A stretch of 64,000 nucleotides of DNA from Polaromonas jejuensis NBRC 106434 (GTDB taxonomy: Bacteria; Pseudomonadota; Gammaproteobacteria; Burkholderiales; Burkholderiaceae_C): assembly GCF_001598235.1 (NCBI RefSeq), contig NZ_BCYO01000010.1, positions 1-64,000 on the forward strand, in the 5' to 3' direction. Shown one piece after another: positions 3,465-55,862 of this stretch (positions are counted from its first letter, which is position 1; each line of letters opens with the position of its first letter). The translations under genes and the position numbers were made by a program. Below the pieces are notes generated by a model. It ran no database searches. It saw only the letters and a list, made by a program, of their open reading frames with translations, and was not told where the DNA came from.

Positions 3465-4169
3465 ATGCGACGTCGAAATTTTAACCAGGCCGGTGTCAGC
3501 GCGCTGGGCATGCTGATATGGGCCACCTGCCAGCAGGCCCATGCGCTCTCGCTGGGCGACCTGAGCAATGCCGAAGCCAGCAGCGGCCTGAAAACCGCCC
3601 TTGAAAAAGGCGCCCTGGCAGCCGTTGCCCTGCTCGGCAAGACAGATGGATTCCTTGGCAACCCAAAAGTTCGCATTCCCTTGCCCGGATATCTCGAAGA
3701 TGCGTCGAAATTGCTGAGAAACTTCGGCCAGGGCAAGCGCATCGATGAATTGGTGACCTCCATCAACCGCGCCGCCGAAGCCGCCGTGCCCATGGGCAAG
3801 GACCTGCTGGTCGGCGCCGTCAGGGCCATGACCGTCAATGACGCCAAAAACATTCTGCAGGGCGGCGAAACCTCGGTGACCAATTTCTTCGCCGAAAAAA
3901 CCCGCGCCCCGCTGGGCGTGAAGTTTCTGCCGGTGGTCACCAAGGCTACCGAAAAAGTCGGCCTGGCCAACAAATACAACGAGGTCGCCGGCAAGGCCGC
4001 CGGCTTTGGCCTGGTCAAGAAGGAAGACGCCAACATCCAGCAGTACGTCACCGGCAAGACGCTGGACGGCCTGTACCTGATCATCGGCGAAGAGGAAAAG
4101 AAAATCCGCCAGGACCCGGTCGGCACCGGCAGCGCGATTCTCCAGAAGGTGTTTGGCGCGCTGAAATAG
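3465..4169 (+). CDS. Exported DUF4197 protein
   Basis: A 234-aa protein of the uncharacterised DUF4197 family. A signal peptide (MRRRNFNQ then a hydrophobic stretch ending in QAHA) is cleaved near residue 27, so it is periplasmic. The rest is helical and lysine-rich, with the family-typical blocks LSNAEASSGLKTALEKGA near the N terminus and DGLYLIIGEEEKKIRQDP near the C terminus. The start at 3465 is set by GGAAGGA nine bases upstream. An in-frame extension to 3210 would run through the thioredoxin gene and is unlikely. Only 16 bases separate it from the divergent thioredoxin start. Function unknown. Confidence 0.85.
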   Translation: MRRRNFNQAGVSALGMLIWATCQQAHALSLGDLSNAEASSGLKTALEKGALAAVALLGKTDGFLGNPKVRIPLPGYLEDASKLLRNFGQGKRIDELVTSINRAAEAAVPMGKDLLVGAVRAMTVNDAKNILQGGETSVTNFFAEKTRAPLGVKFLPVVTKATEKVGLANKYNEVAGKAAGFGLVKKEDANIQQYVTGKTLDGLYLIIGEEEKKIRQDPVGTGSAILQKVFGALK

Positions 4170-4301: not shown

Positions 4302-5615
<1,314 letters not shown>

Positions 5616-41930: not shown

Positions 41931-43334
41931 ATGAACCCCAGCAGCCACGCCGCAATTGCCGCCCTACGGGCCCGCCTTGGAGCCGTGACCGTTCTGACCG
42001 GCTCCGATGTGCCGGTGCGCAACACGAACGACTGGAGCCCGCAGCCGCCAGAGCAGCCACTCGCCGTGGTCCGTCCGGCCGGTACCGATGACGTCTCGGC
42101 CGCGCTGCGCATCTGCCACGAAGCCGGCCTGGCGGTGGTGCCGCAAGGTGGGCTGACCGGCTTGTGCGGTGGCTCGCGGCCGATCGCCGATGCGATCGCC
42201 CTGTCGCTGGAGCGCATGGTCGGCATCGAAGAGATCGACGCCGACGCCGGCACCATCACGGTTCTCGCGGGAACGCCGCTGGCGGTGGTGCAGCGCGCGG
42301 CCGACGATGCGGGGTTCTTCTTTCCGCTCGACCTGGGTGCGCGCGGCTCGTGCGCGATCGGCGGCAACCTGTCGACCAACGCCGGCGGCAACCGCGTGAT
42401 TCGCTACGGTATGGCGCGCGAGATGACGCTCGGGCTCGAAGTGGTGCTGCCCGACGGCACCGTGGTGACGAGCCTGAACAAGATGCTGAAGAACAATGCC
42501 GGTTACGACCTCAAGCACCTGTTCATCGGCAGCGAAGGCACGCTTGGGGTTATCACCCGCGCGGTCTTGCGCATGCATCCGAAACCGGCCTGCACGATGG
42601 TCGCGATGTGCGCGCTGAAAGACTACGCTGGCGTGCTGGCGCTGCTGGCCGCGGCGCGCCGCGACCTCGGTCCGCTGCTGTCGGCCTTCGAAGTCATGTG
42701 GCCCGACTATTGGGATGTGGCCACGCAGCAAGTCTCGGGCGTGCGCAATCCGTTCGAGGGTGACGCGACCACCCACGGCGCGTATGTGCTGATCGAGGCG
42801 CTCGGCACCGATCCTGCCATCGATGTTCCCCGCTTCGGGACCTGGCTCGAAACCCAGCTAGAGCTCGGCCATGTGCCGAACGCGGTGGTCGCGCAGTCGA
42901 TGTCCGACGCCGCGGCGCTGTGGGGCGTGCGCGATGCCTGCTCCGAATTCATTCAGGCGATAGGCCCGCACCTGCCCTTCGACGTCGGCCTGCCCACCGC
43001 CGACATGGACGACTACGCGCGTCGCTGCCGCGACGACCTGGCTGCTCGCATCCCGGGCGCCCGGAGCATGTACTACGGCCACATCGGCGATGGCAACCTG
43101 CACCTGATCGCCTGGCTGCCCGGCGCGGCCGAGCCGCCCAAGCAGGCCATCGAGGAAGTGGTCTACGGCCTGGTGCGCGAGTTCCACGGCAGCGTGTCGG
43201 CCGAGCACGGCATCGGCACCTTGAAGAAGCCCTGGCTCGGCCACGCCAGAACGCCGGAAGAGATCGCGCTGATGCGCACGCTCAAGAAAGCCCTCGACCC
43301 CAAGGGCATCCTCAACCCGGGCAAGGTTGTCTAG
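41931..43334 (+). CDS. FAD-linked 2-hydroxyacid dehydrogenase (GlcD/D2HGDH-like)
   Basis: A 467-aa flavoprotein that oxidises a D-2-hydroxy acid (lactate, glycolate, 2-hydroxyglutarate or a sugar acid) to the 2-oxo acid. FAD-binding domain: PQGGLTGLCGGS near residue 65, and GARGSCAIGGNLSTNAGGNRVIRYG near residue 140. C-terminal FAD-oxidase domain: HIGDGNLHLIAW near residue 385 and SAEHGIGTLKKPW near residue 425. The gene is the first of an operon with an ABC importer, so its substrate is probably the imported compound or a product of it. Confidence 0.92.
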   Translation: MNPSSHAAIAALRARLGAVTVLTGSDVPVRNTNDWSPQPPEQPLAVVRPAGTDDVSAALRICHEAGLAVVPQGGLTGLCGGSRPIADAIALSLERMVGIEEIDADAGTITVLAGTPLAVVQRAADDAGFFFPLDLGARGSCAIGGNLSTNAGGNRVIRYGMAREMTLGLEVVLPDGTVVTSLNKMLKNNAGYDLKHLFIGSEGTLGVITRAVLRMHPKPACTMVAMCALKDYAGVLALLAAARRDLGPLLSAFEVMWPDYWDVATQQVSGVRNPFEGDATTHGAYVLIEALGTDPAIDVPRFGTWLETQLELGHVPNAVVAQSMSDAAALWGVRDACSEFIQAIGPHLPFDVGLPTADMDDYARRCRDDLAARIPGARSMYYGHIGDGNLHLIAWLPGAAEPPKQAIEEVVYGLVREFHGSVSAEHGIGTLKKPWLGHARTPEEIALMRTLKKALDPKGILNPGKVV

Positions 43335-43382
43335 TGCAGTGTTGCACGCTATCTGGAACATAAAAACCTGAAGGAGACTGAC

Positions 43383-44693
43383 ATGAAACTCGCGTTCCGA
43401 ACCTTGGTGTTGAGCGGCTTGGCCGCCGGCACATGGCTGCTGGCCTCGCCCGCCACGGCGCAAAGCTTCGACTGGAAGCACTTCAACGGCGAGACGCTCA
43501 ACGTGCTGCTGAACAACCACCCCTGGTCGAACGCGATTCGCGATCTCGCGCCGGAGTTCACCGCCAAGACCGGCGTCAAGTTGCGCATCGAACTTCTCAA
43601 CGAAGACCCGCAGCGTGCGCGCCTGGGCACGCTGCTGCAGGCGAAGTCGTCGGACATCGACGTCTTCAACTCGCTGCAGATCCGCGAAGGCGCGGTCTAT
43701 GCCAAGGCCGGCTGGTATGCCGATCTCACCCCGTACGTCAACAACCGCACGCTCACCGCGCCTGACTTCAACCTCGAAGACTTCGGCGAAGGCCTGCGCA
43801 AGACCGCGACCTTCGGCGGCAAGCTGGTGGCGCTGCCGATCAACGTCGAAGGCCCGCTGTTCTACTGGCGCACCGACATCTTTGCGAAGTGCAAGGTCGA
43901 GGTCCCGGCCTTCCTCGAAGACATCCCGGTCGCTGCCGCCAAGCTCAAGGCCTGCGACCCCAATCAGGGCGTGTGGGCATCGCGCGGCGTGCGCAACGCG
44001 ATCCCTTACGCGATGGCGAGCTTCGTCTTCAACAGCGGCGGCGATTTCAAGTCGACCGACAAGAAACAGCCCGGCCTGTGCCAGCCCAAGACGATTGCCG
44101 GCATCTCGATGTACGCGGATCTGCTGAAGACCTACGGCCCGGTCGGCGCCACCAACCATAGCTTTCCGCAGGTCGTCGAGTTGCTGGGGCAGGGCAAGAT
44201 CGCAATGACGCACGAGTCGTCGAACGAATTCTCGAATGTCATGAAGTACCCGGGGCGCGAGGGCGACCTGCAGATCAAGGTGCTGCCCAAGGGGCGCGAT
44301 TCTGGCATCTCCAAACCGATAGCCTTCGGCTTCGGTCTGTCGATCTCCGAATTCTCGAAGAAGAAGGACGCCGCCTGGTACTTTGTGCAATGGGCGACCT
44401 CGGCCGAGGTCGAGACCAAGCTGGTGGCCAAGGGCGTGGCGCCGCCGCGGGCATCGGTGTTCTCGGGCCCGGCGATGAAGGCCTGGGCGAGCGAGAAGCC
44501 GGTGCGCCAGCAATGGGTCGATGCGCTGCGCGAGATCAGCCGCACCGGCACCGGCGACTACGCGTCGCCGACCGATCGCGTGCCCGAGACGCGCGAGATC
44601 ATCGGCCGCGCGGTGCAGGAGGTCGTGCTCGGTCAGAAGACCGCGAAGTATGCGGCCTGCGCCGCCGACGCCGACCTGGCCAAGCTGCAGTAG
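43383..44693 (+). CDS. ABC transporter solute-binding protein, family 1 (carbohydrate type)
   Basis: A 436-aa periplasmic protein of the family-1 (UgpB/MalE-like) fold. Signal peptide MKLAFRTLVLSGLAAGTWLLASPATA, cleaved near residue 26. Mature blocks: FDWKHFNGETLNVLLNNHPWSNAIRDLAPEFTAKTGVKLRIEL, and the C-terminal GPAMKAWASEKPVRQQWVDALREI. An AAGGAGACTGAC site precedes the ATG. The ligand is not evident, perhaps a polyol or hydroxy acid conjugate, given the dehydrogenase upstream. Confidence 0.9.
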   Translation: MKLAFRTLVLSGLAAGTWLLASPATAQSFDWKHFNGETLNVLLNNHPWSNAIRDLAPEFTAKTGVKLRIELLNEDPQRARLGTLLQAKSSDIDVFNSLQIREGAVYAKAGWYADLTPYVNNRTLTAPDFNLEDFGEGLRKTATFGGKLVALPINVEGPLFYWRTDIFAKCKVEVPAFLEDIPVAAAKLKACDPNQGVWASRGVRNAIPYAMASFVFNSGGDFKSTDKKQPGLCQPKTIAGISMYADLLKTYGPVGATNHSFPQVVELLGQGKIAMTHESSNEFSNVMKYPGREGDLQIKVLPKGRDSGISKPIAFGFGLSISEFSKKKDAAWYFVQWATSAEVETKLVAKGVAPPRASVFSGPAMKAWASEKPVRQQWVDALREISRTGTGDYASPTDRVPETREIIGRAVQEVVLGQKTAKYAACAADADLAKLQ

Positions 44694-44725
44694 CCACATC
44701 GGCTGCGCCGGCTGGAGCGAACCCC

Positions 44726-45661
44726 ATGAAAAGCATCGTCGTCGCGTCCGCGGCCCATGCCCCCGCAGGCAGTGCGGCCGGCATTGAGCCGCGCCCTGCG
44801 TTCGGGCAGCAAAGCCTGTCGCTAGCCTGGATGATGTGGCCGGCCGTCCTGTTCGTCGGCGCGATGATCATTTTCCCGCTCGTGTACGCGGTGTGGATCT
44901 CGTTGTACGACGCCTCGCTCGGTGCCGAGCCGCGCTTCGTCGGCCTGGGCAACTACCTCGGCCTGATGCAGGACCCGGAGTTCCGCAACGCCTTCAAGGT
45001 GACCTGGCTGCTCTACGGAGCGGCGTTGTCCATGCAACTCGTGCTCGGCACCTGGCTCGGCGTGGTGCTCAACGGCGTGAAGTGGGCGCGCAACCTGGTG
45101 TGCACGATCGCGATCACGCCCTTCATGCTGCCGCCGGTGGTCGTAGGCATGATGGCCATGGTGCTACTCGACCCCTCGGTGGGCATCGTCAACTGGTTCA
45201 TCGGCCTGATCGGAATTCCGCCGCAGCTGTGGCTGGCCCATCCCACCTGGGTGCTGGCCAGCGTGGCGATGGTCGACACCTGGCAGTGGGCACCGTTCGT
45301 GGCGCTGCTCGTGCTGGGCGGCTTGCAGTCTTTGCCAGTCAGTGTGTTCGAAGCGGCCGAAGTCGACGGCGTGATCGGCTGGCGTCGCTTCGTCTTCGTG
45401 ACGTTGCCGCTGCTCGGCCCGACGCTGCTGACTGCGGCGGTGCTGCGCTCGGTGGACCTGCTGCGCTTCTTCGACCTGGTCTTCATCGCCACCCGCGGCG
45501 GCCCGGGCAATGCGTCGACCACGATGAACATGTACGCCTACCAGCAAGGCTTCGAGTTCTCGCGCTTCGGCTGGGCCTCGGCGTCGATGATCACGTTGTC
45601 GCTGGTCGTGCTGTGCACGGTCGTGGTCTTCGCTCGGCTGCGGCGCGCCGTCTCATGGTGA
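44726..45661 (+). CDS. ABC transporter permease (MalF/UgpA-like)
   Basis: A 311-aa permease with about six helices after a hydrophilic N terminus of about 30 residues. The EAA loop reads FEAAEVDGVIGWRRFVFVTLPLLGPTLLT. GGAG lies about 8 bases before the ATG at 44726. The frame extends upstream inside the binding-protein gene, which is a shadow. The stop codon overlaps the next gene's start region (ATGGTGA). Confidence 0.9.
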   Translation: MKSIVVASAAHAPAGSAAGIEPRPAFGQQSLSLAWMMWPAVLFVGAMIIFPLVYAVWISLYDASLGAEPRFVGLGNYLGLMQDPEFRNAFKVTWLLYGAALSMQLVLGTWLGVVLNGVKWARNLVCTIAITPFMLPPVVVGMMAMVLLDPSVGIVNWFIGLIGIPPQLWLAHPTWVLASVAMVDTWQWAPFVALLVLGGLQSLPVSVFEAAEVDGVIGWRRFVFVTLPLLGPTLLTAAVLRSVDLLRFFDLVFIATRGGPGNASTTMNMYAYQQGFEFSRFGWASASMITLSLVVLCTVVVFARLRRAVSW

Positions 45662-45669
45662 GGTCTTCG

Positions 45670-46512
45670 ATGAGCCATTCTTCCGCGTCCCCCTTGCGCC
45701 CTCGCAGCGCGCTCTCGCTGCTGGTCGGGCGGCTGCAGGTCATCCTGATGCTGATGGTGGTGCTGCTGCCGATCGCCTGGATGCTGCTGGCCTCGTTCAA
45801 GCACAGCGTCGACGTGATGAGCTTGCCGCCCAAACTGTTCAACGTGCCCACGCTGGACAACTACCGCGAGCTCCTTGTCCGCACCGATTTCCTGCACAAC
45901 ACCTGGAACAGCCTGGTCGTGGCCACCGGCGCCACGGTCCTGGGTCTGGTCTTGGCCATTCCTGCGGCGTTCGCGATCTCCTGGCACCGCATGACCTGGC
46001 CAGCGACGCTGACGCTGTTCGCCCGGATGGCGCCCGGCACGCTGTTCCTGCTGCCCTGGTTCGTGCTGTTCTCCAAGCTCGACCTCGTGGGCAGCTACAC
46101 GGTGCTGATCCTCACGCACGGCGCGATCACGGTGCCGGTGGCGCTGTGGACGCTGCTGCCGTACTTCGACGGCGTGCCGCGCGCGCTCATCGAATCGGGT
46201 CAGATCGACGGTTGCCGGCCGTACAGCATCCTGCTGCGCATCGTGCTGCCGCTGGTGGTTCCGGGCGTCGTGGTGGCGGCGATCCTGTGCTTCGTTTTCA
46301 CCTGGAACTACTTCCTGTTCGCGCTGGCGCTGTCGGGCTTCGACACAAAGACCGCCATCGTCGCATCGTTCAATTTCGTCGGCGAGGGCGTCACCAACTG
46401 GGGCGCGCTGATGGCCGCTGCCTCTATGATCGCGCTGCCGCCTCTGGTGCTCGCGCTGCTGGTGCAGCGGCGTCTGGTGTCCGGCCTCGCGGTCGGCGCC
46501 GTGAAGGGATAA
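45670..46512 (+). CDS. ABC transporter permease (MalG/UgpE-like)
   Basis: A 280-aa permease, second subunit of the importer, with about six helices. The EAA loop reads RALIESGQIDGCRPYSILLRIVLPLVVPG. The ATG at 45670 has GAGG six bases upstream; a GTG at 45658 is also in frame and overlaps the preceding stop (GTGA). Confidence 0.9.
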   Translation: MSHSSASPLRPRSALSLLVGRLQVILMLMVVLLPIAWMLLASFKHSVDVMSLPPKLFNVPTLDNYRELLVRTDFLHNTWNSLVVATGATVLGLVLAIPAAFAISWHRMTWPATLTLFARMAPGTLFLLPWFVLFSKLDLVGSYTVLILTHGAITVPVALWTLLPYFDGVPRALIESGQIDGCRPYSILLRIVLPLVVPGVVVAAILCFVFTWNYFLFALALSGFDTKTAIVASFNFVGEGVTNWGALMAAASMIALPPLVLALLVQRRLVSGLAVGAVKG

Positions 46513-46517
46513 ATAGC

Positions 46518-47570
<1,053 letters not shown>

Positions 47571-47780: not shown

Positions 47781-47825
47781 TTGACACTTTGCCGCATCAA
47801 AATACCATCTATGAACACGTGTTCA
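47781..47825 (+). promoter_or_regulatory. Sigma70-type promoter with a LacI-like operator
   Basis: TTGACA (47781-47786) lies 16 bases before TACCAT (47803-47808). A perfect 14-bp palindrome, TGAACACGTGTTCA (47812-47825), follows three bases later and would cover the transcription start. Its central CG and symmetry are typical of LacI-family operators. The LacI-type gene at 54063 is in the operon this promoter should drive, so self-regulation is likely. Confidence 0.68.
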
Positions 47826-47883
47826 CATTGGATGGGGTAGCTTTGTCGACTCCTGGATTGACCTTGAATATCGGAGAAAACGC

Positions 47884-49248
47884 ATGGTGACGACCAAATC
47901 GGTCAAACGGATTCTGAAGCATGGCCTTCTGGTCGCCTCGATGACCTGTGCAGGCCTGGCGTACGCCGCTGACTACAAGATCTCGGTGGTTGCGGGCGGC
48001 TCCGGCCCCAATGACAGTTACCGCGTGGACGCGATCGAGATGGCCGCTGACCTGCTGATGAAAGAGGCAGCTGCCAAGGGCGAGCCCCTCCACATCACCG
48101 TCGAAAAACGCAGCTATCCCGACTGGGACAACTTCAAGCAGGCAGTCACGCTCGCGGCCGAATCCGGGAAAGCGCCCAACATCGTGGTGACCGGCCATGA
48201 AGATATCGCGTCCTGGGCGCAGTCCGGCCTGATCGTACCGATCGAAGACTATCTCGATATGGCTTCCTGGCCGATCAACAGCCTCTACCCGAACCTGCTC
48301 AAGGTCGCGTCGTTCAATGGCAAGGTCTACGGCCTGCCGCAGGACACGGAGGCCCGCCCTTTCTTCGCGTGGAAAAACCATCTCAAGCAAATCGGTTACA
48401 CCGACAAGATGATCGAAGCGCTGCCGAACAAGGTCAAATCCGGCGACTACACGCTATACAGCATGCTGAACGATGCCAAGAAGGCGCAGGACAAGGGCCT
48501 CGTGGCGCCGGGCTACGGCTTCTATCCCCGTCCCACCAGCGGTCCGGACTACTGGCAGTTTTATGTGAGCTTCGGCGGCCAGGTGCAGGACCCCAAAACC
48601 GGCCGGCTGGTCTTTGACAAGCAAGCCGCACTCAAGACCTATCAGTTCTTCATCGACGCAGTGAAGATGGGTGTGACGCGCAAGAACCACTTGGGCACCC
48701 CCTGGGATCAGTGGTACCACGAGGTCGCCACCGGCAAGGTGGCCTTCTGGAATGGCGGCACCTGGCACTATGCGCGCTACACGAGCAAGGAAGGCCTGAA
48801 GGACTTTTTCGCCAACATCCAGTTCAGCCTGATTCCCGCCGGCGACAAGACAGGCAAAGCCAATACGCTGAGCCACCCCGTCGTCTACCTGATCACCAAG
48901 CAGGGTGATGACGCGCAGAAGGAGATCGCGGCCAAGCTTGTCGCCATCGCCTCCGAGCCGCGGATCAACGCCTTGCATGCGATCAAGTCGGCCCATCTGG
49001 GAATCAGCCCGCAGGAGGCGAACATCGGTCTGTACCGCAGCGACCGCTGGGCCACGGCAGCAACCGCGAGGCTCCTGCCGTACGCCTACGCGATGCCGAA
49101 CGATACCGACCTGGGCAACTTGTGGAACAGCTACTGGAAGGGCCTGGAAGCGGCCTGGAGCGGCAAGAAAACGGCACAAGAGGCTGTGACGGATGCCGAG
49201 AAGGAAATTCGCGGCGGCAACCTGGCCAACAGGGTTGTGATCCGATAA
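47884..49248 (+). CDS. ABC transporter solute-binding protein, family 1 (UgpB/MalE-like)
   Basis: A 454-aa periplasmic protein. The leader MVTTKSVKRILKHGLLVASMTCAGLAYA is cleaved near residue 28. Mature start DYKISVVAGGSGPNDSYRVDAIEMAADLLMKEAAAKGEPLHITVEKRSYPDWDNFKQAVTLAAESGKAPNIVVTGHEDIASWAQSG. The tryptophan-rich middle (WDQWYHEVATGKVAFWNGGTWHY) is typical for sugar or glycerophosphodiester ligands. A CGGAGAAAACGC site precedes the ATG. First gene of the phosphodiester cassette; the ligand is inferred from the catabolic genes behind it. Confidence 0.88.
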   Translation: MVTTKSVKRILKHGLLVASMTCAGLAYAADYKISVVAGGSGPNDSYRVDAIEMAADLLMKEAAAKGEPLHITVEKRSYPDWDNFKQAVTLAAESGKAPNIVVTGHEDIASWAQSGLIVPIEDYLDMASWPINSLYPNLLKVASFNGKVYGLPQDTEARPFFAWKNHLKQIGYTDKMIEALPNKVKSGDYTLYSMLNDAKKAQDKGLVAPGYGFYPRPTSGPDYWQFYVSFGGQVQDPKTGRLVFDKQAALKTYQFFIDAVKMGVTRKNHLGTPWDQWYHEVATGKVAFWNGGTWHYARYTSKEGLKDFFANIQFSLIPAGDKTGKANTLSHPVVYLITKQGDDAQKEIAAKLVAIASEPRINALHAIKSAHLGISPQEANIGLYRSDRWATAATARLLPYAYAMPNDTDLGNLWNSYWKGLEAAWSGKKTAQEAVTDAEKEIRGGNLANRVVIR

Positions 49249-49256
49249 CAAGGCGC

Positions 49257-49308
49257 CTCTGAACAGATTGTCAGAGCCCCCAGAACGCCAGGCGATGATC
49301 CGCCTGGC
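49257..49308 (+). promoter_or_regulatory. Two hairpins after the binding-protein gene
   Basis: CTCTGA with TCAGAG (49257-49276, 8-base loop), and GCCAGGCG with CGCCTGGC (49287-49308, 6-base loop). Neither is followed by a T run. As after the SBP gene at 33490, these probably stabilise the binding-protein mRNA. Confidence 0.55.
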
Positions 49309-49324
49309 CCCACCGAAATAAAGC

Positions 49325-50638
49325 ATGATGAAGAGATCACATACATTGGGGCTGGCGATGCTTGCGCCGGCACTGATCTTTGTGCTGCTGTTCTTTCTGT
49401 TGCCGGTCGTCATGACCGCCGTTTTCTCATTGACCAACATGAGTACGGCCACTGGCATCAGTAATGGCACCTACCAGATCTCACCTTCGGCATTGAAGAG
49501 CTTGTCCAGTGAATTCGACCTGCCGGATCTGGCCAACAAACTGAGTGAAACCCGCTACACCGTTGATCGCAAGGGACTGGATGCGCTCAAAGCCAGCGGG
49601 GGCGATCAGGGCTTTGTGAATGAAATCGACACAAATCTCCTGGGACGCAGTTATGAACAGCGTCGGGATATCGAGGGCGCATTGCGCGACCTGCGCAACA
49701 GCCCGGCGAATATTCGGGAGGTCAAAAAAGTTGCGGACGTATTCCAGCGTTCGGTGGGCACAACGAAGTTCGAAAGTGCCGAGTCCTTGCTTGAAGCGAT
49801 CTCCCGCGCCGGCGTGTCGCTCAGGCCCGCAGAGCAACGAGCCGTCGCCACGGCGAGCTACACCGGATGGGCATGGACGACCGACAACTACAAGCGCATG
49901 ACGTCGACCCCGGACACCCGAAAGATACTGACCAATACCCTGCTGTATGTTTTCGGCACTCTGAGTCTTTTCAACATTGGCTTTGCCCTGGTGCTGGCCA
50001 TTTCAACCCACTATCTGCCTCAAAAGCCAGCCGGCTGGATTCGCGGCATCTGGTTGCTGCCGCGTATCACACCGCCGGTGCTGTATGTGCTGCTCTGGAA
50101 GTGGTTTGCGTGGGACACAGGTTTCATTTCGGCTGTGATGTCGGCGTTCGGCGTACCGGCCCGAAACTGGATGCTCGACTCCACCGCCAACACCTGGACA
50201 TTCGTGATCCTGATCAATGGTTTTGTCGGGGCTTCGATGGGCATGCTGGTGTTCTCATCGGCCATCAATGCGATTCCGAAAAGCCAGTTCTGGGCCAGCG
50301 ATGTCGACGGAGCCAACCGCCTCCAGCAGATCCGCTACATCGTTCTGCCGCAACTGCGTTGGCCAATTCTGTTCGTGACGTGCTACCAGACCCTTTCGTT
50401 GCTGACGTCGTTCGAATACATCCTGCTGGCCACCGATGGCGGTCCCGGGGGCACGACCGAGGTCTGGGCCCTGCACGCCTTTCACACCGCGCTGCGCAAC
50501 TACGCCGGCAACCTGCAGTACGGCTATGGCGCCGCACTCGCGATGATTCTCGTCTGCATCGGCCTGTTCCTGTCCGCCCTTTACCTGAAGCTGTTCCGTT
50601 TCAAGGAATTGGTTGCCAAGCCGCGAATCGAGATCTAG
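49325..50638 (+). CDS. ABC transporter permease with long periplasmic insertion (MalF-like)
   Basis: A 437-aa permease, about 130 residues longer than usual. After the first helix (residues about 8-35) a mainly hydrophilic stretch (about residues 40-190) precedes the second helix near LLYVFGTLSLFNIGFALVLAIS. This insertion holds LSETRYTVDRKGLDALKASGGDQGFVNEID and RDIEGALRDLRNSPANIREVKKVADVFQRS, and lies where MalF carries its P2 domain. The EAA loop reads WASDVDGANRLQQIRYIVLPQLRWP. The start could be the first or second M of MMKRSH. Confidence 0.88.
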   Translation: MMKRSHTLGLAMLAPALIFVLLFFLLPVVMTAVFSLTNMSTATGISNGTYQISPSALKSLSSEFDLPDLANKLSETRYTVDRKGLDALKASGGDQGFVNEIDTNLLGRSYEQRRDIEGALRDLRNSPANIREVKKVADVFQRSVGTTKFESAESLLEAISRAGVSLRPAEQRAVATASYTGWAWTTDNYKRMTSTPDTRKILTNTLLYVFGTLSLFNIGFALVLAISTHYLPQKPAGWIRGIWLLPRITPPVLYVLLWKWFAWDTGFISAVMSAFGVPARNWMLDSTANTWTFVILINGFVGASMGMLVFSSAINAIPKSQFWASDVDGANRLQQIRYIVLPQLRWPILFVTCYQTLSLLTSFEYILLATDGGPGGTTEVWALHAFHTALRNYAGNLQYGYGAALAMILVCIGLFLSALYLKLFRFKELVAKPRIEI

Positions 50639-50647
50639 GAGGAGCCG

Positions 50648-51472
50648 ATGTCTCACCACCGATCAAACACCTTGCTGCTCGCCGTTTTCAGCCTGCTGAG
50701 CGCGCCGCTGTTCCTGATGTACGCGTATCTGTTCATCGATACGTTTTCCAACACCCGGGCGGGTGAGCTTCTTCCCCACCAGTTCACGCTGGAGCATTGG
50801 CGCTTCCTGTGGCAGGACCTTCCAGGGAAACCGGGTATCTGGAGCGTGACATTGAATACGCTGGTTTTCGCCACGGTCACCACTTTGCTGGTTCTGGTGG
50901 TTTCCTCCGCCGCCGCCTATGCGTTGTCACGCCTGAACATGCCTCTGAGACGGTTCTTTCTGGGGGGCGTGATGGTTTTGCATGCCTTTCCGACCGTCAC
51001 GCTGCTGATCGCGACATTCCTGATCCTGCAGTATGTCGGCCTTTACGACACCATCCTCGGCGTGATTATCGTGAAGACCTCGCTCGAACTCCCGTTCGGT
51101 ATCTGGATTCTGAAGGGCTTTTACGACACCGTTCCCTGGGAGATTGAAATGGCTGCCATCCAGGATGGTGCCAGCCGTTTCCGGGTCTGGCGCGAAATCG
51201 TCTTGCCGCTGGTCAGGCCGGCTCTGGTGTCGCTCGGAATCTTCTCCTTCCTGGCGGGGTGGAGCGAATACCTGCTTCCGCAGGTGCTGGCCCCCGGAAA
51301 CAACGCGCAGGTGTTGTCCGTTTATCTCGCCGGGCTGATCGCCGACGATAACAACTTCGACATGGCGACATTCAAATCCGTTGGACTGTTCTATGCCGCA
51401 CCGGTCATGATTCTGTTCGTGATCTTCCAGAAGCAGTTGATGAATATGTATGGTGGAGGGAATAAAGGCTAA
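50648..51472 (+). CDS. ABC transporter permease (MalG/UgpE-like)
   Basis: A 274-aa second permease. Six helices; EAA loop EIEMAAIQDGASRFRVWREIVLPLVRPALVS. AGGAGGAGCCG lies before the ATG, 9 bases after the upstream stop. The stop overlaps the ATPase start (TAATG), so the genes are translationally coupled. Confidence 0.92.
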   Translation: MSHHRSNTLLLAVFSLLSAPLFLMYAYLFIDTFSNTRAGELLPHQFTLEHWRFLWQDLPGKPGIWSVTLNTLVFATVTTLLVLVVSSAAAYALSRLNMPLRRFFLGGVMVLHAFPTVTLLIATFLILQYVGLYDTILGVIIVKTSLELPFGIWILKGFYDTVPWEIEMAAIQDGASRFRVWREIVLPLVRPALVSLGIFSFLAGWSEYLLPQVLAPGNNAQVLSVYLAGLIADDNNFDMATFKSVGLFYAAPVMILFVIFQKQLMNMYGGGNKG

Positions 51473-52533
51473 TGGGTATCCAGATCCGTAATTTGACGAA
51501 AAGGTTCGGCGACACCGCCGTCATCGAAAACATGAACCTGGACATCGCGCCGGGTGAGATGGTAGCGCTGCTCGGTCCGTCCGGCTGCGGCAAGTCCACC
51601 ACCTTGTTCGCGGTCAGCGGCATCCATCGAGTGGATGACGGCCAGATTCTGATTTCCAGTCGGGATGTGACGCATGCCCCGCCGCAACAACGCAATGTCG
51701 GCGTGACCTTTCAGTCCTATGCACTGTACCCGCACATGACGGTGGAGCAGAACATCGGATTTCCGCTGAAGGTCCGAGGGGAAACCGCTGCCGAGGTCAG
51801 GCGCAAGGTCGCGGAAATCGCCGAACTCGTGCGCATCGACGACCTCCTTCAGCGCAAACCGGCCGCGCTGTCCGGTGGTCAGCAGCAACGCGTGTCGCTG
51901 GCACGGGCCATTGTCCGCCGGCCTGATGTGTTGCTGATGGATGAACCCCTGGCCAACCTCGACGCCAACCTGCGCATCGAGATGCGCACCGAAATCCGCC
52001 GGATTCAGCAGGAATCCGGCATCACCGCCATCCTGGTCACGCACGATCAGGTCGAGGCGATGAGCATGTGTGATCGCATCGCGCTCATGCAACACGGCAG
52101 GGTCGTGCAGGTCGATACGGCGGTACAGATGTACAACAACCCGACCCATGCCTTTGTCGCCGGGTTTCTGGGCAATCCACCGATCTCTTTTCTGGATGGT
52201 GCTCTGGACACACAGCGTTTTGTCCATGAGAGCGCGCAGGTCGCCCTCGCGCTTGATGCGATGCCCGATGGCGGGCGCCGAAAGGTCCGGGTGGGATTGC
52301 GCCCCGAACACGTGGAGCTGAAATCAGCAGGCGCGAACCACGCGATCGTCAGCTTCATTGAACATCAGGGTCGTGAAATCCTGTACGACCTGAAGCTCTC
52401 GAGCGGCGACGTCGTCCGCACCATTCAATCTGCCAAGGGGGATCTCAAGCTCGGTGAGGCAGTCCGCTGGCATGTCGCACCTGAACATGTTCTGGTCTTC
52501 GATGAAAAGGGAGATCGTCTGCATGTCGCGTGA
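51472..52533 (+). CDS. ABC transporter ATP-binding protein (UgpC/MalK-like)
   Basis: A 353-aa ATPase. Walker A GPSGCGKST near residue 36, Q-loop VGVTFQSYALYPH, signature LSGGQQQRVSLARAI, Walker B VLLMDEPLANLDANLR, and VTHDQVEAMSMCD. The C-terminal TOBE domain has VGLRPEHVEL. UgpC-type proteins of glycerol-phosphate importers interact with phosphodiesterases, a point of interest because the next gene, overlapping by 11 bases, is a phosphodiesterase. Confidence 0.94.
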   Translation: MGIQIRNLTKRFGDTAVIENMNLDIAPGEMVALLGPSGCGKSTTLFAVSGIHRVDDGQILISSRDVTHAPPQQRNVGVTFQSYALYPHMTVEQNIGFPLKVRGETAAEVRRKVAEIAELVRIDDLLQRKPAALSGGQQQRVSLARAIVRRPDVLLMDEPLANLDANLRIEMRTEIRRIQQESGITAILVTHDQVEAMSMCDRIALMQHGRVVQVDTAVQMYNNPTHAFVAGFLGNPPISFLDGALDTQRFVHESAQVALALDAMPDGGRRKVRVGLRPEHVELKSAGANHAIVSFIEHQGREILYDLKLSSGDVVRTIQSAKGDLKLGEAVRWHVAPEHVLVFDEKGDRLHVA

Positions 52534-54070
52534 ACAACGGCGGAGCTTGCTCGCAGGACTCACACGGCCCAAGCCGCTGTGCATTGCCCATCGGGGAGCC
52601 AGCGGCCACCGGCTCGAAAATACCCTGGAAGCCTTCGAGCTGGCGGCCCGTCTGAACGCCGACATGTGGGAGATCGATGTTCAGTTGACAGCCGATGGTG
52701 TCTGCGTGGTCAGTCACGACGACAACCTGAACAAGAACGCCGGCGTGGATGTCCGGATTCAGGACGTGTCGTACGAGCGGCTGAGGGCGTATCGGCTGCA
52801 CAACGGGGAGCCGGTCCCCAGCGTTCGCGAAGTCATCCAACTGGCCAGGCAAACAGGTTGTGGCCTGTATATCGAGTTGAAGGCCGAAGGCTCGGGGCCG
52901 AAAGTGGTGGATCTGCTGAAGGAGATGAACTTCAGCAACGTGGTGATCGGCTCTTTCAAGACATCACGCCTGGCCGAACTGGCCGCGCTGCACTGCCCCT
53001 ACCCCTTGTCGGTGCTGGTGCCAGCCGGCGCAGACCCGTTTTCCCTGGCCGAGACCGGCTGCGCCGACATGATCCACCTTTGCTGGGAAAAGGCATCTGA
53101 TACGCCGCATGAACTGCTGAGCGACGAATTGATCGCCAAGGCCCAGGCGCGTCAGTTGCCGATTGTCATCTGGCACGAGGAACGTGCGAACGAAATCGCC
53201 CGGCTCATGCGGATGCCGGTATGGGGGATCTGCAGTGACCTGCCGGAAATGGTCAGCGCTTATCACCCGCATCCGGACAACCCTATCCAGATCGTCTGCC
53301 ACCGCGGTGCGAACACCATCGCACCCGAGAACACCTTGGCCAGCGCAGAACTCGGATACCGCATGGGTGCCGAGACCATCGAACTGGATCTGAACACCAC
53401 GGCCGACGGGCAACTGGTGGTGATTCATGATGACACCCTTGACAGAACCACCAATCTGAACGGGCCGGTCTGTCAACGCACCTTGGCGGAATTGTCGCTG
53501 TGTGACGCGGGCTCATGGTTTCACCCGAATTACCGTACCGAGGAGGTCAGTGCCTTCGTTACTTACCTGGCGCTGGCCGATCGTTACCAGAAGTCGTTGT
53601 TCGTCGAACTCAAGGCCGCGAACGCGGGCCGCGTGATGGAGGAAGTGGCGGCGCGCAATGCGTGGTCGCGCTGCTTTTTCTGGAGCTTCGACTTCGCCAG
53701 CGTCGACCTGATTCAGTCCAACTATCCGCAGGCCAGAGTGATGCGGCGGCGTCAGGACTATCCCAACCTTGCGGTTCTGCTGGCGACAGGTACGCCCTAT
53801 GTCGTGGAATACGACCACCTGATCGATGACTTGTCCGAGTTCGCGCAGTGCCGCGCCTCGGGTGCAAAGGTGATGGTCCGCTTCTTTGCGGACCAGCTCG
53901 ACGCGGCCGTTGCCCTGATCGGCCTGAAGCCCGATATGGTGAACATTGATGATCCGTTCACCTTCAGCCGGGCCTATGGGATCTGGCTGAAATCCGGGTA
54001 TCCGGGTATCGCGACGCCGTGTGAAGAATCCCAATCCATTCAAATAGCAGGTAGAACGCAGGATGCCTAA
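52523..54070 (+). CDS. Tandem two-domain glycerophosphodiester phosphodiesterase
   Basis: A 515-aa protein made of two GDPD domains. Domain 1 (about residues 15-230): H23-R-G, E32-N, E50/D52 and H65-D-D. Domain 2 (about residues 255-490): H260-R-G, E269-N, E287/D289 and H302-D-D followed by LDRTTN. Both keep the full catalytic and calcium/metal set, so both may be active. No signal peptide is seen, so it acts in the cytoplasm after import. GDPDs split phosphodiesters to a phosphomonoester and an alcohol. GGGAG lies 9 bases before the ATG at 52523; ATG 52502 is an alternative. It overlaps the ATPase gene by 11 bases and LacI by 8. Confidence 0.93.
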   Translation: MSREQRRSLLAGLTRPKPLCIAHRGASGHRLENTLEAFELAARLNADMWEIDVQLTADGVCVVSHDDNLNKNAGVDVRIQDVSYERLRAYRLHNGEPVPSVREVIQLARQTGCGLYIELKAEGSGPKVVDLLKEMNFSNVVIGSFKTSRLAELAALHCPYPLSVLVPAGADPFSLAETGCADMIHLCWEKASDTPHELLSDELIAKAQARQLPIVIWHEERANEIARLMRMPVWGICSDLPEMVSAYHPHPDNPIQIVCHRGANTIAPENTLASAELGYRMGAETIELDLNTTADGQLVVIHDDTLDRTTNLNGPVCQRTLAELSLCDAGSWFHPNYRTEEVSAFVTYLALADRYQKSLFVELKAANAGRVMEEVAARNAWSRCFFWSFDFASVDLIQSNYPQARVMRRRQDYPNLAVLLATGTPYVVEYDHLIDDLSEFAQCRASGAKVMVRFFADQLDAAVALIGLKPDMVNIDDPFTFSRAYGIWLKSGYPGIATPCEESQSIQIAGRTQDA

Positions 54071-55070
54071 AAAGGTCACGGCGCAGGTGACAGCACAGGT
54101 CACTGCGCAGGAGGTCGCTGACGCAGCCGGGGTTTCCCGTGCTGCCGTTTCGCGAACCCTCTCCAACTCCGGATACGTTTCCGCGCAGGCCCGAAACAAG
54201 GTGCTGCAGGCAGCCAGCGCCCTCGGATACCGGGTCAACCACCTGGCCCGCGGCCTGAACAAGCTGCGCTCCGACCTGGTCGGTCTGGTGGTGGCCGATA
54301 TCGACAACCCCTTCCGTAGCCAGCAACTCAAAGACCTGAGTGAAGCCTTGCTGGAAAACCAGTACCGCCCGCTCCTGATTCCCACCACGCAGGGGCGGGA
54401 CAGTTCACAGGTGATCGACATGTTGATGCGCTATAGCGTATCCGGCGTGATCATCACCTCGGACACGCCACCTGCCGAAATTTATCGAAACTGTATCCGT
54501 CACCAGGTCCCGGTTGTGCTGATCAACAAGGCCGACCAACACCCGAAGGTTGACCGTGTTCTTTGTGACAACGCCAAGGGCATAGCGCTGTTGGCAGATT
54601 TTTTCCGTCAAGCGCAATGCCGGCAGGTCGCGGTCATCGCCACCAAAGAAGGCTCGTACAGCATTCAATGCCGTGAGCGTCTGTTCGTGCAACAGATGGC
54701 GGATCTGGGCATCCGGACCTCGGTGATCCGCGCGCCCAAACACGACTATCAGGGCGGGGCCATGGCCGCCCTGGAACTGCTGTCAATGCCTTCTTTGCCA
54801 GATGGCGCTTTCTGCACCAACGACTATCTGGCATTGGGTTTGATCGACCAACTCAAAGACAAGTTATCGCCATCGAGATTCAGGAAAATCCGCATTACCG
54901 GCTTTGACGATATACCGCAGGCAAGCTGGCTCAACTACCAGCTCACCACCATCAGGCAGTCGACCCGGGACCTCGCCGCCGCCGCGGTCGACCTGTTGAA
55001 GAGAAGGATCGACGATCCCGATCTCGAAGGGCAGACCGAAATCATCGATGTGCAGTTGGTCGCCCGATAA
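54063..55070 (+). CDS. LacI family transcriptional regulator
   Basis: A 335-aa repressor. The helix-turn-helix (about residues 16-40: VADAAGVSRAAVSRTLSNSGYVSAQARNKVLQAASALGYR) and hinge helix (NHLARGLNKLRSDLVGLVV) precede a sugar-binding-type domain with GFDDIPQASWLNYQLTTIRQ at the end. The first residues repeat VTAQ three times from a 12-base tandem repeat (54074-54109) with wobble changes, an odd leader for this family. It likely binds the palindrome at 47812 and senses the imported phosphodiester or a breakdown product. The ATG overlaps the GDPD stop. Confidence 0.92.
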   Translation: MPKKVTAQVTAQVTAQEVADAAGVSRAAVSRTLSNSGYVSAQARNKVLQAASALGYRVNHLARGLNKLRSDLVGLVVADIDNPFRSQQLKDLSEALLENQYRPLLIPTTQGRDSSQVIDMLMRYSVSGVIITSDTPPAEIYRNCIRHQVPVVLINKADQHPKVDRVLCDNAKGIALLADFFRQAQCRQVAVIATKEGSYSIQCRERLFVQQMADLGIRTSVIRAPKHDYQGGAMAALELLSMPSLPDGAFCTNDYLALGLIDQLKDKLSPSRFRKIRITGFDDIPQASWLNYQLTTIRQSTRDLAAAAVDLLKRRIDDPDLEGQTEIIDVQLVAR

Positions 55071-55103
55071 AAATACAAAGACTACAAGGACGCGTGAATT
55101 CCC

Positions 55104-55862
55104 ATGAACATTGCATTGCATGACCGTTTGGCGACGGCAAAAAAACTCGCTCGCGACGCGGGCGCGCTGGCACTTTCGTATCAGGAGCGCCTGCGGCGCA
55201 ACGACCTCGTTATCATCGAGAAAGGCGTGCAGGATTTTGTCAGCGAGGCTGACCAGACAACCGAACGCCTGATCCGGGATGAACTGGCTCGACAACACCC
55301 TGAGGATGGTTTTCTTGGCGAGGAGACCGGAAGTTGCCTGCATGGTCAGGGCGTCTGGGTCGTCGATCCGATCGATGGTACAAACAACTATTTGCGCCAG
55401 CACAGACACTGGTGTGTTTCGATCGCGTACGTAGTGGACGGGGAACCGTTGCTGGGAGTCATCTATGACCCGAGCAACGACGAATTGTTTAGCGCGCTCA
55501 TCGGACAAGGCGCTTATCTCAATGATTGCCGCCTGCACGCCGACCACGGAAATGCGGATCGTGTCCGAATCGTGAACCTGGGGTATTCCGCCAAAACCGA
55601 ATTGCAGCATTACCTGCGCACCATCGAACGCCTGTTCGAGCAGGGCATCGATCATCGCCGCCACGGTTCCGCAGCGCTGGGTCTGGCGCATGTTGCGGCC
55701 GGCCGCTTTGACGGCTACATGGAAGCCTTTATCAATGCGTGGGACATCATGGCCGGCGTCATCATCGTTCGGGAAGCCGGACTTTGGGTGGAACTGCAAA
55801 CACGGCCCGGTGGATATGCGATTCGAGCGGGTGTTCCCGCGCTTGCGCCGATTCTGGTATGA
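55104..55862 (+). CDS. Inositol-monophosphatase-family phosphatase
   Basis: A 252-aa magnesium-dependent sugar or polyol phosphatase of the IMPase/CysQ/FBPase fold. Metal-site residues are complete: E73-E74 (FLGEE), D88-P-I-D91-G-T (WVVDPIDGTNNYL) and D214 in NAWDIMAG. Substrates of the family are inositol-1-phosphate, histidinol phosphate, PAP and sugar phosphates; none is certain here. It follows LacI by 33 bases in the phosphodiester cassette, so it is best placed to remove the phosphate left by the GDPD protein. Confidence 0.92.
   Translation: MNIALHDRLATAKKLARDAGALALSYQERLRRNDLVIIEKGVQDFVSEADQTTERLIRDELARQHPEDGFLGEETGSCLHGQGVWVVDPIDGTNNYLRQHRHWCVSIAYVVDGEPLLGVIYDPSNDELFSALIGQGAYLNDCRLHADHGNADRVRIVNLGYSAKTELQHYLRTIERLFEQGIDHRRHGSAALGLAHVAAGRFDGYMEAFINAWDIMAGVIIVREAGLWVELQTRPGGYAIRAGVPALAPILV

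Follow-up and report, generated by a model that had tools for sequence, protein, structure and literature searches.

Organic phosphodiesters form a large pool of nutrients in the sea, in soil and in plants, yet apart from Ugp, Acc and the recently described system for xanthosan we know of few that are dedicated to their uptake and cleavage. A locus of Polaromonas jejuensis NBRC 106434 raises the question of whether a further system of this kind exists. The window, a stretch of 64,000 nucleotides from contig C10 (NZ_BCYO01000010.1) of the 5.13-Mb host genome, holds seven packed genes for an ABC importer, a tandem glycerophosphodiester-phosphodiesterase (GDPD)-family protein, a LacI-family repressor and an inositol-monophosphatase (IMPase)-family phosphatase. 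We consider it likely that these genes form a self-contained nutrient cassette that imports a phosphodiester, cleaves it with the GDPD protein, dephosphorylates the product with the IMPase and is repressed by LacI, with PhoB as an additional regulator in many relatives. An earlier note on this DNA had proposed import and cleavage of a phosphodiester by one operon. To this the present analysis adds a predicted operator, a Pho-box-like element in relatives, a fusion of GDPD to LacI and the range of bacteria in which the cassette occurs. The cassette is a unit with its own predicted operator, in which the solute-binding protein (SBP), the enzyme and the 16-bp site each offer a handle on the substrate. 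Literature searches, which covered open-licence papers only, listed no paper on this cassette.

Gene content of the cassette

The genes and domains of the cassette are as follows.

47884..49248, + strand: SBP with a MalE-like fold, 454 aa (SBP_bac_8 / SBP_bac_1)
49325..50638, + strand: permease 1, MalF-like, 437 aa, the permease domain preceded by a long N-terminal part (BPD_transp_1 at residues 221-420)
50648..51472, + strand: permease 2, MalG-like, 274 aa (BPD_transp_1)
51472..52533, + strand: ABC ATPase of the UgpC/MalK type with a TOBE domain, 353 aa (ABC_tran + TOBE_2)
52523..54070, + strand: tandem GDPD-family protein, 515 aa (two PF03009 stretches, 178.1 bits)
52568..53254, + strand: GDPD domain 1, residues ~16-244 (PF03009)
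53276..53992, + strand: GDPD domain 2, residues ~252-490 (PF03009)
54063..55070, + strand: LacI-family repressor, 335 aa (LacI HTH + Peripla_BP_3)
55104..55862, + strand: IMPase-family phosphatase, 252 aa (PF00459, Inositol_P, 189.2 bits)

Pfam supports the family of each of the seven genes, all of which are intact and closely packed on the + strand, with intergenic gaps of 76, 9, -1, -11, -8 and 33 nt; the GDPD start at 52523 is an ATG that we chose within a longer open reading frame (ORF). This spacing, together with an order conserved in relatives, bears out the proposal of one operon-like unit. The importer is of the CUT1 type, as the earlier note held, both by its Pfam families and by NCBIfam, which places it nearest Mal and Ugp. 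The SBP model (pLDDT 89.5) has MalE-type and other sugar-binding SBPs as its nearest solved folds.

Conservation and spread

A protein search with the 515-aa GDPD query scored 7999 candidates and gave 680 relatives, 120 of them listed; the first 34 of those listed align over 90% or more of the query with an identity of 44% or higher. A profile (A1) was then built from 27 of these relatives, and a contig search with it found 171 relatives. Counts over 80 loci refer throughout to the best 80 of the 171 loci matching this tandem GDPD profile, and partner families were scored by phmmer, comparing the seven window proteins with the ORFs of these loci under score thresholds of our own setting.

All six partner families stand beside the GDPD gene in 49 of the 80 loci, and the usual order is SBP-permease-permease-ATPase-GDPD-LacI-IMPase. 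The IMPase alone is missing in another 19, 14 of which belong to Roseibium or Labrenzia, and LacI alone is missing in one. Four loci, three from Deltaproteobacteria and one from Granulosicoccus, have the importer with both LacI and IMPase absent; in the three deltaproteobacterial loci the importer runs divergently. Seven others (L034, L042, L054, L056, L086, L089 and L097) are incomplete, decayed or ended by the contig, and one cassette (L064) is permuted, with LacI-IMPase ahead of the SBP gene. Clustering of flanking ORFs of at least 120 aa around the 80 loci gave only one cluster found in more than seven loci (cluster 0, 39 loci), which we read from example members as a mixture of ABC ATPases. 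Because no other flank cluster recurs that often, the conserved unit ends, on this sequence comparison, at the seven genes.

These data bear on the simplest alternative, namely that the genes are adjacent by chance or belong to several unrelated units. A second, unrelated CUT1-type operon does lie directly upstream, which lends the idea some colour, but the order of the cassette is conserved across Alpha-, Beta- and Gammaproteobacteria, and a single operator, common to the loci, tracks the presence of LacI. We regard chance grouping as extremely improbable and reject it on the neighbourhood conserved in the loci with all six partners. The earlier note had called for a search for the same gene order in other genomes and had named the lack of a conserved neighbourhood as grounds for abandoning the idea; the neighbourhood proved strongly conserved.

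Cassette holders span marine, soil and plant-associated bacteria. They include Ralstonia, Photobacterium, Vibrio, Roseibium, Ruegeria, Shimia, Martelella, Devosia, Pelagibacterium, Rhizobium, Neorhizobium and Ensifer, as well as metagenome-assembled genomes labelled Oceanospirillaceae and Deltaproteobacteria. Among the best 80 of the 171 loci, the window GDPD is closest to that of Ralstonia sp. SET104 (77% identity), followed by those of Photobacterium and Vibrio (56-59%). Plasmids carry the cassette as well: SBP relatives occur in 146 plasmid records, 121 of them from Rhizobium, and the same seven genes are annotated in the same order on plasmids of R. etli CIAT 652, R. leguminosarum WSM1325 and Marinovum algicola DG 898. 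The GDPD is single-domain on the two Rhizobium plasmids and tandem, by its length of 474 aa, on that of M. algicola. Among 200 genomes of the host's family, the host included, the full GDPD protein was found only in the host, the next best match scoring 82.9 bits against 1185. The cassette is thus rare in this family and was probably acquired by the host.

The Ralstonia sp. SET104 locus (L034) is a decayed cassette in which the ATPase, the GDPD and a truncated LacI are left while the SBP and permease genes are gone; its GDPD reading frame, the one 77% identical to that of the window, is still open.

The tandem GDPD protein

Both halves of the protein belong to the GDPD family (PF03009), each with a profile match, two catalytic histidines, glutamate and aspartate metal ligands and an E/D-x-K motif, residues that serve in catalysis and metal binding in this family. 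Both domains are present in 68 of the 80 loci. With residues numbered as in the window protein, domain 2 keeps H260, R261, E287, D289, H302, E362 and K364 in every one of these 68, and domain 1 keeps H23, R24, E50, D52 and H65 in all 79 loci that can be read there, the contig of L097 ending inside the gene. K120 of domain 1 is kept in 80/80, while position 118 holds E in 47 loci and D in the other 33. The two intact sites of the earlier note are thus conserved across the loci. The doubling itself, which the note had counted as a distinguishing feature, is real but not essential, as 12 of the 80 loci have domain 1 alone.

The AlphaFold model, built from 27 sequences, has a mean pLDDT of 92.6 and a barrel resembling solved GDPDs, the top Foldseek match being 1zcc, a GDPD from A. 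tumefaciens. Each of the 50 Foldseek matches listed aligns with roughly one half of the protein (TMq at most 0.43), and none of these 50 is a solved tandem GDPD of the same type.

The domains are 28% identical to each other over 148 columns. Trees were built with 22 of the 81 cassette GDPDs (80 loci plus the window) and that of R. etli (L134), after three sequences, o_L001 (the host's other GDPD), o_L005 and o_L012, had been dropped before the final tree as poorly extracted or long-branched. In the 50-row tree, which has no outgroup root, domain 1 forms one clade (support 100/99) and domain 2 another (90/86 only), and the nearest relative of domain 2 is the free-standing GDPD o_L137. The low identity and the separate clades led us to reject a recent duplication, and we infer from the sequences that two different GDPD lineages were joined into the tandem. 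A single clade of all single-domain forms was rejected as well (p-AU 0.0036; the clade was defined by domain content, though after the first tree had been inspected), and domain 2 was therefore probably lost at least twice. A defence role for the GDPD protein was also considered and rejected, as it has no PADLOC match.

Other GDPD arrangements came up in the course of the searches. The free-standing GDPD to which domain 2 is closest in the tree is carried by Rhizobium wenxiniae (L180, G238:C11), where its neighbours are a ROK regulator, a permease, an ATPase, a metallophosphoesterase and an autotransporter that bears an endonuclease/phosphatase domain. On a plasmid of Paracoccaceae bacterium La 6 (L177), a 617-aa GDPD gene comes directly after an annotated sugar-type ABC importer. 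Where its product aligns with domain 1 the identity is only 28%, and the locus represents a different importer-GDPD pairing.

The IMPase-family phosphatase and the inositol question

The phosphatase belongs to the IMPase family (PF00459) by its profile match and by its GEE, DP-DGT and WD motifs, whose residues have established roles in these enzymes and are invariant in 25/25 aligned IMPases, one of them from another locus type. Its gene lies directly behind LacI in 49 of the 51 loci with a nearby IMPase, and on the three plasmids named above; the two exceptions are L040, which has no LacI, and L052, where the ORF is listed with a longer overlap. The host genome holds only one other IMPase-family gene, which supports a phosphatase dedicated to the cassette. 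In the 19 genomes whose loci have no IMPase, a search for a replacement with an IMPase from Roseibium suaedae as query found several family genes in each and no clear orthologue other than the query itself, whose gene has operator sites but belongs to a different importer locus.

An IMPase-family enzyme in one operon with a sugar-type importer and LacI invites the idea of a glycerophosphoinositol cassette. The GDPD protein would release inositol-1-phosphate and glycerol, or glycerol-3-phosphate (G3P) and inositol, the IMPase would free inositol, and the Iol pathway would burn it. Of 36 cassette-bearing genomes, 31 have IolD and 30 have IolE above the cut-off, figures that stand beside no cassette-free baseline for comparison. 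Against this idea, the host genome gives no match to IolE and none above the cut-off to IolD; neither enzyme reaches the cut-off in Vibrio maerlii (G201), Martelella alba (G225), Pseudovibrio exalbescens (G228) or Rhizobium deserti (G234), and in G219 IolE alone fails to do so. The flanks show no gene common enough to hint at an iol partner, though no search was aimed at iol genes there. Inositol as a required payload is weakened by the gaps in the host genome; as an obligatory payload we reject it for the host, but not for the relatives. The glycerophosphoinositol cassette as a whole is improbable, and no positive evidence emerged for this substrate, which the earlier note had offered as an example.

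Another importer-IMPase arrangement is seen in Labrenzia sp. OB1 (L172) and Roseibium marinum (L173), where LacI, a 363- or 386-aa ORF, a 736-aa permease, an ATPase and an IMPase stand together. In L172 the permease is PhnU2-like and the ORF of this pair has no NCBIfam match, and the stretch taken from either locus has no GDPD match.

A predicted LacI operator

The repressor has the LacI HTH and sugar-binding domain of its family and, by sequence, a palindromic predicted operator with a central CpG, which lies with promoter-like hexamers before the SBP gene.

47781..47808, + strand: promoter-like hexamers TTGACA - 16 nt - TACCAT (consensus scan, 10/12 matches)
47811..47826, + strand: predicted LacI operator, the 14-bp perfect palindrome TGAACACGTGTTCA inside ATGAACACGTGTTCAC

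A promoter scan of the region gives 2 matches, no more than shuffled sequence does (mean 3.1), and the promoter call therefore rests on its position beside the operator. The first base of the hexamer pair, 47781, is also where the region described in the earlier note begins. The operator itself is the positional counterpart of the TTGCACACGTGTGCAA-type sites of relatives, with 4 mismatches from that consensus. Among 74 upstream slices (73 loci plus the window), 68 have a site within 4 mismatches of the 16-bp TTGCACACGTGTGCAA before the SBP gene and 63 have one within 3; of 3235 control windows, 6 come within 3. The consensus was derived from the same loci, which makes the match rate partly circular. 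A comparison less affected by this shows that the site follows the repressor closely: of the 69 slices whose locus has LacI (the window included) 68 have it, and of those without LacI 0/5 (Fisher p = 3.7e-7, a nominal value as the loci are related). The exception, L064, has an exact operator just outside its slice, at 4789 between the IMPase and SBP genes, and a second site with one mismatch at 3854, before the IMPase gene.

On a genome-wide scale, the 16-mer occurs within 1 mismatch in 18 of the 37 genomes searched, and in 17 of these 18 solely at the cassette. The eighteenth is that of Roseibium suaedae, where two sites precede an IMPase gene elsewhere in the genome; the organism's own cassette carries the operator variant TTGCACATATGTGCAA. 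That IMPase gene belongs to a LacI-IMPase-importer locus (L171, G206:C14) that also comprises a PhnU2-like fused permease, a UgpC-like ATPase and a Na/phosphate transporter. With its two cassette-type operators before the IMPase, this locus is perhaps a phosphomonoester counterpart of the cassette. The host genome has one more operator-like site (G000:C4:203004; L114), around which no pathway-linked gene was recognised.

Pho-box-like elements in relatives

The Pho box has the consensus CTGTCAT-N4-CTGTCAT, and matches were scored over its 14 positions. A match with at most 4/14 mismatches lies at -42 to -36 from the operator in 24 of 57 non-rhizobial operator loci (the window included), compared with 0-3 of the 57 for 22 other intervals of the same size; in rhizobial loci a match lies at +14 to +20 in 11/11. 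These offsets were picked after an earlier scan had been viewed, and the kinship of the loci inflates the counts. When position is left free, a match with at most 3 mismatches is found in 27 of the 74 slices and in 30 of 1142 control windows. The window has no such element, its best match showing 5/14 mismatches in the upstream slice and 6 at the conserved place, where the window, Vibrio and Photobacterium loci have 6-8. PhoB control is for this reason not claimed for the window; in relatives with the element it may be predicted.

Fusion of the phosphodiesterase to the repressor

In 11 loci (L103-L113; Pfam was run on two) domain 1 and LacI share one ORF of 579-643 aa. The holders are Rhizobium, Neorhizobium, Ensifer, Pseudorhizobium and two other Rhizobiales, and a Neorhizobium petrolearium plasmid is annotated likewise, with that GDPD match under a LacI gene name. 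An internal start could also give LacI alone from such an ORF. In R. etli and R. leguminosarum, GDPD and LacI are separate genes with a 17-nt overlap.

The fusion links a catabolic enzyme to a predicted repressor. In the acc system, the effector of the repressor AccR is the product of AccF, not the diester (PMC4526662). By analogy, the fusion suggests that LacI senses the enzyme product.

Two rhizobial loci have a further GDPD-family gene on the - strand, convergent with the cassette and just behind the IMPase (L106, 12532-13473, 38.3 bits; L110, 12513-13568, 26.7 bits).

Comparison with known systems

By the tests made, the cassette is Acc-like in its logic but is neither Ugp nor Acc, in agreement with the earlier note. 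It resembles Ugp in its CUT1-type importer, in a UgpC-like ATPase beside a GDPD gene and in the Pho-box-like elements of many relatives. Every subunit nevertheless falls below the NCBIfam cut-off (bits scored/required: UgpA 31.3/335, UgpE 54.8/297, UgpC 361.9/432, PRK09454 (UgpQ) 162.9/264). To our knowledge, a tandem GDPD, LacI and IMPase are absent from Ugp loci. The cassette also lies under all Mal cut-offs (MalE 37/291, MalF 46.7/392, MalG 99.8/261, MalK 302.2/568) and differs further from MalEFGK in having no glycosidase among its seven genes.

The Ugp likeness raises the alternative that the cassette is a variant of Ugp plus UgpQ for generic glycerophosphodiester scavenging, with G3P as the useful product and the IMPase a side activity. 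An ATPase nearest UgpC, the GDPD family and the elements expected for phosphorus scavenging in many relatives all fit. But besides the unmet cut-offs, the host genome already has another, single-domain GDPD (contig C6), and LacI control and a dedicated IMPase would be superfluous for such a role. The strong conservation of the SBP, with a mean column identity of 68% in a 26-row alignment, moreover suggests one ligand. Generic scavenging therefore seems to us rather unlikely.

The closer parallel is acc. There too a phosphodiester is imported and then cut, and AccF and AccG are named as a putative phosphodiesterase and a putative phosphatase (PMC4526662). The acc-type locus L176 holds a DeoR/GlpR regulator, an SBP, two ATPases, two permeases, a 266-aa single-domain GDPD and an IMPase; we read it as the acc locus from its gene order, as the record names no acc gene. 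L176 and the window both combine importer, GDPD-family phosphodiesterase, IMPase-family phosphatase and repressor in one unit, and the GDPD-IMPase pairing that the earlier note had cited for Agrobacterium is thus seen directly. The two differ in the importer (annotated as oligopeptide/dipeptide type with two ATPases in L176, CUT1-type with one ATPase in the window), in the regulator (DeoR/GlpR versus LacI), in the GDPD (single-domain versus tandem) and in the position of LacI, which sits between GDPD and IMPase in the window. AccF is 33% identical to domain 2 and 29% to domain 1, and AccG is 33% identical to the window IMPase.

A third system, that for xanthosan in Xanthomonas (XanT, XanP), likewise treats a sugar phosphodiester as a dedicated nutrient, with a small set of genes for its uptake and hydrolysis, but it relies on a TonB-dependent outer-membrane transporter, a 2H phosphoesterase and a ROK regulator, and the available part of its description names no ABC importer, GDPD hydrolase, LacI or IMPase (PMC12807533). 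Pfam found neither a TonB transporter nor a 2H phosphoesterase among the seven cassette genes.

A further alternative is that the cassette serves Acc-like catabolism of a sugar phosphodiester with two sugar-like parts and possibly two phosphodiester bonds, both cut by the two GDPD sites. The pairing of GDPD and IMPase as in acc speaks for it, as does the union in a single chain of two distinct GDPD lineages, each with its site intact; and a cyclic dimeric galactose phosphate, which by name has two phosphodiester bonds, is a known bacterial nutrient (PMC12807533). Conversely, domain 1 alone suffices in 12 loci, AccF and AccG are distant, and the system in that source uses a TonB-type transporter and a 2H phosphoesterase. 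This specific substrate class is unlikely.

Proposed pathway

The broader scheme, a dedicated phosphodiester cassette, is fairly secure as a class of mechanism. The CUT1-type ABC importer would take in an intact small phosphodiester with a sugar-like or polyol part, transport being predicted to run inward. In the cytoplasm the GDPD-family enzyme would cut the diester into an alcohol or sugar and a phosphomonoester, from which the IMPase-family enzyme would then strip the phosphate, and the products would join central metabolism. LacI would hold the promoter shut through the palindrome at 47811-47826, and the inducer that releases it would most likely be either the substrate or the phosphomonoester set free by GDPD. 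In many relatives the Pho-box-like element beside the operator would add PhoB control, and there the cassette probably supplies both carbon and phosphorus. The single GDPD domain that in rhizobia overlaps or is fused to LacI would join the product-making enzyme to the sensor.

A more speculative extension, which we hold only tentatively and think improbable, is that sugar and polyol phosphodiesters feed bacteria in a widespread but so far unrecognised economy, of which the cassette would be the ABC-importer arm and in which the tandem GDPD would cut two diester bonds or two kinds of diester and the rhizobial fusion would make its own inducer on a DNA-binding protein.

Neighbouring genes

The unrelated CUT1-type operon upstream (41931-47570) adjoins the cassette and stands behind a FAD-linked oxidase gene (41931-43334). 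It consists of an SBP gene (43383-44693), permease genes and an ATPase gene (46518-47570); its SBP shares almost nothing with that of the cassette, and the two ATPases are 40% identical. In keeping with the probable acquisition of the cassette, its region is also poorer in GC (0.575-0.603 per kb, 48 to 56 kb) than the genes upstream (0.605-0.704 per kb, 38 to 47 kb), although the content varies downstream as well, from 0.559 to 0.647.

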